A DNA stretch of 64,000 nucleotides from Asticcacaulis tiandongensis (GTDB lineage Bacteria > Pseudomonadota > Alphaproteobacteria > Caulobacterales > Caulobacteraceae), in the NCBI RefSeq assembly GCF_006475605.1, contig NZ_SSBC01000010.1, forward strand, positions 930,001 to 994,000, in the 5' to 3' direction. Of this stretch, positions 62,174-64,000 are shown in pieces (position 1 is the first letter of the stretch; every line of letters starts with the position of its first letter). Under the pieces are notes generated by a model. That model did no database searches and was not told the origin of the DNA. It worked only from the letters and a program-made list of their open reading frames with translations. A program made the translations under genes and the position numbers.

Positions 62174-62611
62174 ATGGGCGCTAAGCTCGGCGGTGGCGGC
62201 GGTGGTCGTTACAATGTGGAACAAAATTCCGATATCAACGTGACACCGTTCGTTGATATCATGCTCGTGCTGCTGATCATCTTCATGGTGTCTGCACCTA
62301 TGGCGACCGTGTCGATCAAACTCGACCTCCCCCCTGCGATTCCGAATCCGGAACAGCAGGAACAACCCAAGGATCCGGTTTTCATCTCCATTCAGGGCAC
62401 CGACGACATCTATATCGGTACCAACAAGACCTCGCTGGCAACCCTTGCGGCTGATCTGACTGTGGCCCTTGAATCCCCGAACCCGCTTGATGAGCGTGTT
62501 CTGGTGCGTGGCGATGCCGACATTGAATATAACGACTTCATGGCTGTTCTGAACGTGCTTCAGGACAACGGCTTCTTCAAGATCGGCCTGATCAACGAAG
62601 ACATTACCTGA
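62174..62611 (+). CDS. exbD: ExbD/TolR-family biopolymer transport protein
   Basis: 145 residues from the ATG at 62174 (AGGGAG 7 nt upstream). A Gly-rich N-terminus leads to one membrane helix with the proton-path Asp in NVTPFVDIMLVLLIIFMV, then the periplasmic domain (PKDPVFISIQGTDDIYIG, ADIEYNDFMAVLNVLQDNGF). It belongs to ExbB/ExbD- or TolQ/TolR-type energy coupling with TonB. No exbB or tonB is next to it, so it is an orphan copy in the window; the partner genes may lie elsewhere. Confidence 0.9.
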   Translation: MGAKLGGGGGGRYNVEQNSDINVTPFVDIMLVLLIIFMVSAPMATVSIKLDLPPAIPNPEQQEQPKDPVFISIQGTDDIYIGTNKTSLATLAADLTVALESPNPLDERVLVRGDADIEYNDFMAVLNVLQDNGFFKIGLINEDIT

Positions 62612-62635
62612 TAAACGGATAAAACCGATTTCAGA

Positions 62636-62669
62636 CACGCCGGAAGTTCACGCTTCCGGCGTGTTTTTT
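62636..62669 (+). terminator. Intrinsic terminator after exbD
   Basis: CACGCCGGAAG (62636-62646) pairs with CTTCCGGCGTG (62653-62663), followed by TTTTTT. It ends 13 nt before the pseudouridine synthase ATG. Confidence 0.93.
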
Positions 62670-62682
62670 GTTATATGAGCGC

Positions 62683-63684
62683 ATGACCTATTCTCCTGAC
62701 GACATCGAAGACATCGAAGACGACCAAACCGGCGAAACCCTGCACTTTGACCTGCCCCCTGATCAGGCAGGTGACCGGCTGGATCGCGCACTGGTGCCGT
62801 TTATCGGCGATATGTCCCGCGCCCGCCTTCAGTCCCTGATCGCAGAAGGCCGCCTGAAGCTTAATGGTGAGCCCATCACTGACGGCAAGCATAAGGCCCG
62901 CGCCGGCAGCTACAGCCTGATGATTCCCGCCCCCGTCTCCGCCTTGCCTGAACCACAGAACCTTGCCCTCACGGTTCTGTACGAAGACGCCCACCTGATC
63001 GTCGTCGATAAACCGGCGGGCATGGCCGCTCATCCGGCCTCAGGGACACCTGACGGCACGCTGGTCAATGCCCTGCTCTATCACTGCGGCGACAGCCTGT
63101 CCGGCATTGGTGGCGTATTGCGTCCTGGCATTGTCCATCGCCTTGACAAGGATACCTCTGGCGTCATGGTCGCCGCCAAGTCCGATCAGGCGCACAAAGG
63201 CCTGAGCGATCTCTTTTCGCGCCACGACATTAAACGCGCCTATGAGGCCTTTGTACGCGGCGTTCCTAAATCAGAATCCGGTACGGTCACCACCCGCCTC
63301 GGCCGCTCCATGCATGACCGCAAGAAAATGGCTGTCCTGCGTCAGGGCGGACGCGAAGCCATTACCCATTACCGCCTGCTGGACGTTTTCGGTGACAAGC
63401 CGGTCGCCTCACACATCCGCTGCACGCTTGAAACCGGCCGCACGCACCAGATCAGGGTGCATATGGCCCATATTGGCGTCCCCTGCCTTGGCGATCCGGT
63501 CTATGGCTCCGGCGCTCCGGTCAGGGCCGTCGCCGACATTATCAAAGACCTGAACTTCACGCGTCAGGCGCTTCACGCCGCACACCTCGGTTTTGTCCAT
63601 CCGGTCACCGGCGAGAAACTGTCCTTCGAGGCCCCCTTCCCCGAAGATATGGCCGCCCTGCACGACGCCCTGCTTGACCTCTGA
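62683..63684 (+). CDS. rluD: RluA/RluD-family pseudouridine synthase
   Basis: 333 residues from the ATG at 62683; the longer frame would begin inside the exbD terminator. An N-terminal S4 domain (DRALVPFIGDMSRARLQSLIAEGRLKLNG) precedes the synthase domain with the catalytic Asp in PGIVHRLDKDTSGVMVAAK, YEAFVRGVP and a closing TGRTHQIRVHMAHIGVP. RluD-type enzymes modify 23S rRNA helix 69; the RluD label is by layout only. This gene next to rpoH is a common alphaproteobacterial order. Confidence 0.92.
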   Translation: MTYSPDDIEDIEDDQTGETLHFDLPPDQAGDRLDRALVPFIGDMSRARLQSLIAEGRLKLNGEPITDGKHKARAGSYSLMIPAPVSALPEPQNLALTVLYEDAHLIVVDKPAGMAAHPASGTPDGTLVNALLYHCGDSLSGIGGVLRPGIVHRLDKDTSGVMVAAKSDQAHKGLSDLFSRHDIKRAYEAFVRGVPKSESGTVTTRLGRSMHDRKKMAVLRQGGREAITHYRLLDVFGDKPVASHIRCTLETGRTHQIRVHMAHIGVPCLGDPVYGSGAPVRAVADIIKDLNFTRQALHAAHLGFVHPVTGEKLSFEAPFPEDMAALHDALLDL

Positions 63685-63689
63685 CCATA

Positions 63690-63734
63690 CTCCCCTAACT
63701 TGTTGGGGGAGATGTCACGAAGTGACAGAGAGGG
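63690..63734 (+). repeat. Two-hairpin intergenic repeat, family C copy 6
   Basis: CTCCCC pairs with GGGGAG (63690-63711). Hairpin 2 is TGTCAC-GAA-GTGACA (63713-63727). The end is GAGAGGG. It follows the rluD stop by 5 nt. Confidence 0.75.
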
Positions 63735-63846
63735 TATATTTTCTTTTCCTGAAGCCCAAATCGTAACACCCACGATTACTAATCTGTGAGTTTAGTATTT
63801 TCTGCCCTTAGAGGGCCTTTATTTTCGTCTAAACCTTCCTACATGG

Positions 63847-63887
63847 AAAAGGTAGGCAATTGAGCGCTCAATTGGACCCACCTTTTT
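63847..63887 (+). promoter_or_regulatory. Terminator-like hairpin in the rpoH leader
   Basis: The perfect 18-bp palindrome CAATTGAGCGCTCAATTG (63857-63874) forms the top. AAAAGGT/ACCTTTT and GG/CC extend the stem below, with one mismatch and a GA bulge, ending in TTTTT. It ends 26 nt before the rpoH ATG. Confidence 0.7.
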
Positions 63888-63913
63888 GGCTGGCGTTTCA
63901 ACAGGGGGTTCTT

Positions 63914-64000
63914 ATGCCCGAAGATAAAACGACACAGGACACTGAAGGGGATACCATGACCAACACAGCTGTTATGAGCTTACCTGCCATGACGTCGCTT
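63914..64000 (+). CDS. rpoH: RNA polymerase sigma-32 factor RpoH (5' end only)
   Basis: Only 29 codons are in the window. The frame starts at ATG 63914 with AGGGGG 5 nt upstream; a second ATG at 63956 has AAGGGG 5 nt upstream and gives a start (MTNTAVMSLPAMTSL) more like alphaproteobacterial RpoH. Identification rests on the gene order rluD-rpoH and this N-terminus, not on a sigma domain, so it is provisional. If right, it directs heat-shock transcription. Confidence 0.6.
   Translation, partial: MPEDKTTQDTEGDTMTNTAVMSLPAMTSL

Follow-up and report, generated by a model that had tools for sequence, protein, structure and literature searches.

The window analysed here, a stretch of 64,000 nucleotides from Asticcacaulis tiandongensis (positions 930001-994000 of its contig), contains close to its right-hand end a terminator-like hairpin located between an rluD-like pseudouridine synthase gene and a downstream gene on the same strand (Table 1). 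The original prediction took this downstream gene, the first in-frame ATG of which is at 63914, to be rpoH, an assignment borne out by its match to TIGR02392 (372.1 bits vs. a cut-off of 323.1). The name rluD is the label given by the earlier reader, and its basis here is the open reading frame together with the motif [KR]TH[QR]IR[VL]H, which we take to be characteristic of rluD-like pseudouridine synthases. This motif is present 5' of rpoH in 21 of the 25 genus loci scanned and was not found upstream of rpoH in the other four (L013, L016, L020 and L023). Between the two genes, the region 63693-63730 contains CTCCCC..GGGGGAGATGTCACGAAGTGACAGAGAGG, which by appearance consists of nested inverted repeats; TGTCACGAAGTGACA, from this same region, occurs as a single copy within the window.

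To place the locus among its relatives, 25 genomes of the genus were sampled, the window's own included, and rpoH was present in all of them. A maximum-likelihood tree inferred from the rpoH coding DNA separates these genomes into three groups, namely clade A, which comprises nine rows (the window's locus L005, L006-L012 and L014; support 99/96), clade B with 11 rows (support 90/88) and clade C with five rows (support 100/100). The best named locus is that of A. endophyticus (L035; 87% identity), in which the 280 bases upstream of the rpoH anchor are identical to those of the genus member L026. In every one of the 25 genomes rpoH is opened by two in-frame ATGs, which suggests an N-terminal extension of the protein or the existence of two RpoH forms. 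In the window a G-rich ribosome-binding site precedes each of these ATGs (63914 and 63956). A strong ribosome-binding site is likewise found at both ATGs in the five clade-A leaders inspected, while that of the second ATG is weak in clade B.

Table 1. Features between the rluD-like gene and the start of rpoH (positions are those of the window).
Feature	Position	Strand	Basis or remark
Pseudouridine synthase gene (rluD-like), 5' of rpoH	62668..63684	+	Open reading frame
Terminator-like hairpin, GCCC-TTAGA-GGGC then CTTTATTTTC	63804..63816	+	Terminator scan; abuts the -35 element
Putative -35 element, CTTTAT	63817..63822	+	Degenerate heat-shock type, without CTTG core
Putative -10 element, CCTACATG, heat-shock type (rpoH promoter corresponding to P2)	63838..63845	+	Genus comparison
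Reported hairpin, arms AAAAGGT/ACCTTTT and T run	63847..63887	+	Folds at -13.6 kcal/mol; found in none of the 24 relatives
Predicted transcription start	about 63851	+	Promoter geometry; 13 nt counted from where the -10 box begins
Perfect palindrome, CAATTGAGCGCTCAATTG	63857..63874	+	One exact genome copy; chance level
Ribosome-binding site of the first ATG, AGGGGG(T)	63903..63909	+	Some predicted folds pair its 3' part with the palindrome's left half
First in-frame rpoH ATG	63914..63916	+	Product would start MPEDKTTQ...; 26 nt 3' of the T run
Second in-frame rpoH ATG	63956..63958	+	MTNTAVM..., preceded by AAGGGG; by eye the Caulobacter start region

As a sequence, the hairpin is largely as the original prediction described it. 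An 18-bp perfect palindrome is indeed flanked by the arms AAAAGGT (63847-63853) and ACCTTTT (63880-63886), and the distance from the T run to the ATG at 63914 is the 26 nt that had been given. The run of five Ts is also present (63883-63887), but it overlaps the right arm, and is largely the right arm itself, instead of following it as had been stated. The segment 63847-63888 folds with an energy of -13.6 kcal/mol and contains one bulge and one mismatch, the palindrome alone accounting for -4.4 kcal/mol. CAATTGAGCGCTCAATTG is the only perfect palindrome of at least 16 bp in the window. In 20 Markov-1 sequences matched to the window in length and dinucleotide transitions, the mean count of perfect palindromes with a length of 18 bp or above is 0.5; the length of the palindrome is thus at chance level and its statistical significance is weak. 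Of 300 shuffles of the 50 nt that follow the -10 box, 2% attain a perfect stem of 7 bp, with no correction applied for choosing the stem post hoc, a figure that may leave scope for selection having acted in the window's species alone.

Directly 5' of the hairpin, at 63817-63845, lies a promoter-like block with the structure CTTTAT-N15-CCTACATG, counterparts of which are found in all 25 genus leaders. The distance between the start of the CTTT element and the -10 box is 21 nt in 19 of these leaders, including that of the window, 22 nt in the five clade-C leaders and, in L013, 17 nt. The -10 box reads CC(T/C)A(A/C)AT in 24 of 25 leaders and CGTACATA in L013, with the candidate inside the promoter-like block picked by hand in the five loci that offer two (L005, L017, L022, L026 and L029), and is separated from the first ATG by 74-83 nt in 19 leaders (76 nt in the window) and by 114-124 nt in six. 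The -35 box is CTTTAT in the window and CTTTTTT, CTTTAT or CTTTTA in the relatives, and the CTTG core is absent from it both in the window and in the genus relatives, unlike in groES and clpB. The groES loci of the genus carry CTTGAC in 25 of 25 cases and CCTA(A/C)CTC in 13 of 25, and the clpB loci carry CTTGTG in all 21 that were correctly read (L172, L175, L177 and L180, with a wrong ORF start, are excluded from this count), 19 of which show CCATATC by eye. The upstream regions of hslV, recovered by motif in 16 of 25 genomes, have a less clear -10 box and were excluded from the promoter evidence. By its sequence, the rpoH -10 box thus appears heat-shock-like and the -35 box degenerate, and because the latter is without CTTG the block is labelled here as promoter-like and not filed as a sigma32 promoter, although we infer that sigma32 probably uses it in the window. 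In Caulobacter crescentus, rpoH is transcribed from a sigma70-dependent promoter, P1, and an autoregulated sigma32-dependent promoter, P2 (PMC3751524).

With a predicted transcription start inside the left arm, the hairpin most likely opens the rpoH message, of which it would make up about the first 37 bases, and would not mark where rluD ends. The original prediction, which reasoned that rpoH transcripts must either pass through the hairpin or start inside it, is therefore probably right on this point, but it overlooked the conserved promoter-like block located immediately upstream. An ATG that overlaps the -10 box was also observed in this region (63843-63863). In the window it opens a six-codon frame that is not preceded by GGAG; in the clade-A relatives it opens MEKEDKS-like frames with a GGAG seven bases upstream, which are in frame with rpoH in L006-L010 and L014 and are closed by stops in L011 and L012.

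Conservation of the promoter-like block does not extend to the hairpin. Over the 50 nt that follow the -10 box, the palindrome of the window is present in 0 of 24 rpoH leaders of the relatives; L025 carries another stem of 7 bp, and the best perfect stems of the other 23 are 3-6 bp long. In the alignment of clade A, made from seven of its nine sequences (without L007 and L012), conservation continues from the -10 box for about a dozen bases and gives way to divergence where the palindrome lies. Among the 25 genomes, the reported hairpin is seen solely in the species of the window. The comparison of leaders in related species had been proposed by the original prediction itself, which named absence of the structure from relatives as one of the results that would speak against it, and this absence is what was found in 24 of 24. 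One leader of the clade shows an insertion of its own: in genome G013 the rpoH leader (L012, 2463-2507, minus strand) is 47 nt longer than that of its sister (124 vs. 77 nt), and the inserted sequence is palindromic, resembles a REP-type mobile palindrome and shows a partial match, scoring below the gathering threshold, to the CI408 family of Brucella sRNAs (E 7.6e-6).

We consider it probable that the hairpin is peculiar to this species and sits at the very beginning of an rpoH message transcribed from a conserved promoter of heat-shock type, which would correspond to the Caulobacter P2, and that it is neither a terminator of rluD nor a conserved regulatory element. In this model, transcription would be driven by the heat-shock-type promoter, the -10 box of which has its last base at 63845 and is separated from the left arm by one base, and would start at about 63851 inside that arm, so that the hairpin would occupy the 5' extremity of the mRNA. 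Folding predicts two alternatives for the left half of the palindrome, closure of the hairpin or pairing with the ribosome-binding site that serves the first ATG, so that it would at most tune the initiation of translation at this ATG. Unconserved and probably the mere 5' end of the rpoH message, the hairpin of the window is by itself of little importance. Its neighbourhood deserves attention nonetheless, the weightier by-product of this analysis being a hairpin with strong covariation that masks the start codon in clade B.

Over a 93-nt span around the first ATG the window's leader has a z of -1.04, with the AUG paired at 0.60 and the ribosome-binding site at 0.64, compared with a mean z of -0.36 (sd 1.13) and pairing of 0.54 and 0.53, respectively, for 50 ORFs of the window (at least 200 aa, first ATG taken as the start, uncurated), of which three lie below z -2.5. 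Three computations of the leader's fold gave z values of -0.76, -1.12 and -1.04. Both the fold energy and the start-site pairing of the leader are ordinary. The suggestion that the hairpin attenuates rpoH or senses temperature is unsupported: no relative has the hairpin, and these two properties are unexceptional. Moreover, the predicted structure depends on the RNA considered. The palindrome hairpin forms with a probability of 0.96 in the nascent RNA 63851-63888, drops to 0.11 at 37°C when the RNA is extended to 63913, where it is outcompeted by pairing of GAGC with the ribosome-binding site, and returns to 0.76 in the RNA 63851-63950 (0.70-0.81 across all temperatures). In the RNA 63851-64000 its probability is 0.00 at 20°C, 0.22 at 37°C and 0.47 at 42°C, and pairing of the ribosome-binding site decreases from 0.99 at 20°C to 0.49 at 42°C. 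RNAs that begin at 63780 or 63730 form no palindrome hairpin at any temperature tried, and pairing of the ribosome-binding site is 0.99-1.00. Because the predicted fold swings with the chosen ends, no thermoswitch can be claimed.

In the sister clade, as judged by sequence comparison, a conserved hairpin does lie over the start codon of rpoH, and it differs in sequence from that of the window. It is found in the 11 clade-B loci (L013, L015, L016, L017, L019, L020, L021, L022, L023, L027 and L028), the leaders of which have z values between -0.8 and -5.3, eight of them at -3.2 or below, and in which the first AUG is paired at 0.98 or more in nine and at 0.64 in L015 and L021. A covariance model built from only two clade-B sequences recovers the other nine (E 1e-19 to 3e-5); it gives no match, even among weaker ones, at the leaders of the other 14 genus members, and nothing in the 30 further loci searched out of a set of 80 (best E 4; default filters). 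The model built from all 11 sequences, when run with stricter filters against 199 genomes of the family, recovers every one of the 11 genomes of clade B, at E 1.7e-12 or better, plus five weak matches (E 6e-4 to 0.016), which were taken as chance, rpoH being absent nearby as judged by one protein motif. No match of the clade-B models was obtained at the window's leader with filters off, nor in its own genome under stricter filters. The hairpin consists of 21 pairs, which are formed in 91.3% of the cells of the model-aligned sequences. Eight of the 21 pairs are changed on both sides, vs. 4.1 in shuffled alignments, and 20 cells show a two-sided change, vs. 6.8, values reached in 0 of 500 shuffles in either case, on an alignment that was fitted to the model and so favours it. 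The number of further standard pair types is unremarkable (16 vs. 14.6; 126 of 500 shuffles as high), and 18-47% are paired once the partners are shifted by 1 to 3 columns. Plain folding of the model-fitted alignment keeps the stem, with seven two-sided pairs, and an earlier alignment made from sequence alone contains three such pairs. Among the papers searched for rpoH leader structures in this group, no report of the clade-B hairpin was found. Between 20 and 47°C the AUG is predicted to be unpaired at 0.04 or less in nine of the 11 leaders, and at 0.35-0.37 in L015 and L021. This near constancy in nine of 11 makes a plain melting thermometer unlikely; it is more likely that the hairpin is opened by a factor, or that the second AUG is used.

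The existence of this hairpin lends some weight to the alternative that survives best, although we still regard it as doubtful, namely that the window's leader is a switch responsive to temperature or to a factor, a divergent version of the masking seen in the sister species. In the cold, the left half of the palindrome would mask the ribosome-binding site, and in the warm the palindrome hairpin would form and free it. The two pairings are mutually exclusive and their balance moves with temperature in the RNA 63851-64000, and in 11 species of the sister clade the first rpoH AUG is covered by a covarying hairpin. Within clade A, the unpaired fraction of the AUG rises between 20 and 47°C from 0.01 to 0.43 in L011 and from 0.00 to 0.35 in L012, two leaders in which the ribosome-binding site can pair with GC(A/G)UAUCUUU near the 5' end. 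However, the fold energy of the window's leader is ordinary, other spans show no such shift, the clade-B models have no match at this leader, and six clade-A leaders (L006-L010 and L014) have z values of 0.0 to +1.0. Furthermore, exchange of partners between clade-A species does not consistently weaken the pairing: the window gives -19.2 with its own partner and -19.8 with that of L006, and L012 gives -13.1 with its own and -14.9 with that of L014. An extension of this idea to the whole genus is put forward only tentatively and with comparable reserve. The rpoH leaders would be start-masking RNA switches, clearly so in the 11 sister species, in which the covarying hairpin with its C-rich loop buries the first of the two in-frame AUGs, and in a diverged, temperature-shifting form in the window, with the palindrome hairpin as the open state. 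If true, RNA-level control would govern how rpoH is translated, or which of two RpoH N-termini is made.

It is still less probable that the hairpin acts as an intrinsic terminator or attenuator, for the rpoH transcript as well as for transcription reading through from rluD or from a promoter farther upstream. Five Ts are located on its 3' side and, as described above, the nascent RNA 63851-63888 is predicted to form the palindrome hairpin. Nevertheless, the stem is weak and interrupted by the bulge and the mismatch, the RNA 63851-63888 folds at -10.4 kcal/mol with part of the U run inside the stem, and the hairpin 63847-63887 was not listed by a terminator scan of 62600-64000. Its position is also difficult to reconcile with such a role, since a terminator 3' of the conserved promoter-like block would silence that very promoter. 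The hairpin is absent from 24 of 24 relatives, and upstream of it lies another terminator-like site. The latter (63804-63816) could be the end of rluD transcription, but the evidence for it is weak, the scan having returned three sites vs. 1.4 expected in shuffles.

Least probable among the readings retained, and very improbable in our estimation, is that the palindrome serves as a DNA operator for a dimeric repressor just 3' of the promoter, in the style of CIRCE at groES. The consensus of the CIRCE/HrcA operator is TTAGCACTC-N9-GAGTGCTAA, and a CIRCE-like repeat precedes groES in 25 of 25 genus loci, with the exact consensus in 18. The palindrome of the window occupies a similar position relative to the -10 box, its half-site TTGAGC presumably resembles sites of LacI-type proteins, and TTGAGCGCTCAA has 14 sites in the genome with at most one mismatch (11 of them with one), vs. 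one for the reversed control pattern. Yet two other exact copies of the 12-bp core lie inside long ORFs, the site is kept in none of the 24 rpoH leaders of relatives checked, and the palindrome differs from CIRCE, the consensus of which was not found at 63857-63874. A dispersed, REP-like palindromic repeat was rejected, as a search of the own genome returned one exact copy and one with three mismatches.

The preferred reading of the hairpin, as the 5' end of an rpoH message, can be set against several known systems. With the CIRCE/HrcA arrangement of groES the window shares an inverted repeat just 3' of a heat-shock-type promoter, but its palindrome is unrelated in sequence and unconserved at rpoH. 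At the groES loci themselves (L115-L139, e.g., L124), the heat-shock-type promoter and the CIRCE-like repeat occur together in 25 of 25, so that positive and negative heat-shock control both appear to be present. A structured leader on an alphaproteobacterial rpoH has a precedent in Bradyrhizobium rpoH1, which carries a ROSE-type RNA thermometer (PMC4167512). The Rfam ROSE model gave no match up to E 5 at the window's rpoH locus and none up to E 1 at 11 relatives (nine of the 11 clade-B loci, L011 and L012). More generally, Rfam yielded no credible match at the window's leader, and neither ROSE nor any other credible match at the nine clade-B leaders scanned. Unlike ROSE, the clade-B hairpin buries the AUG and the first codons and is predicted to remain closed up to 47°C in nine of 11 leaders. 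The leader of E. coli rpoS forms a self-masking hairpin that is opened by small RNAs. Clade B resembles it in that a stable stem, the apical loop of which is rich in C in all 11 leaders, would mask the start of a stress sigma factor; this masking hairpin is not seen in the window. Another close parallel is the P1/P2 region of C. crescentus, with which the genus, like many Caulobacterales loci inspected by eye, shares a CCTAyNT-type heat-shock -10 box 5' of rpoH. The genus departs from it in its CTTTTTT-like -35 box and in its extra in-frame upstream ATG, and the window in addition by its palindrome. Were the rpoH leaders of the genus to exert control at the RNA level, this would contrast with the transcriptional control from P1 and P2 that the literature consulted describes for the family.
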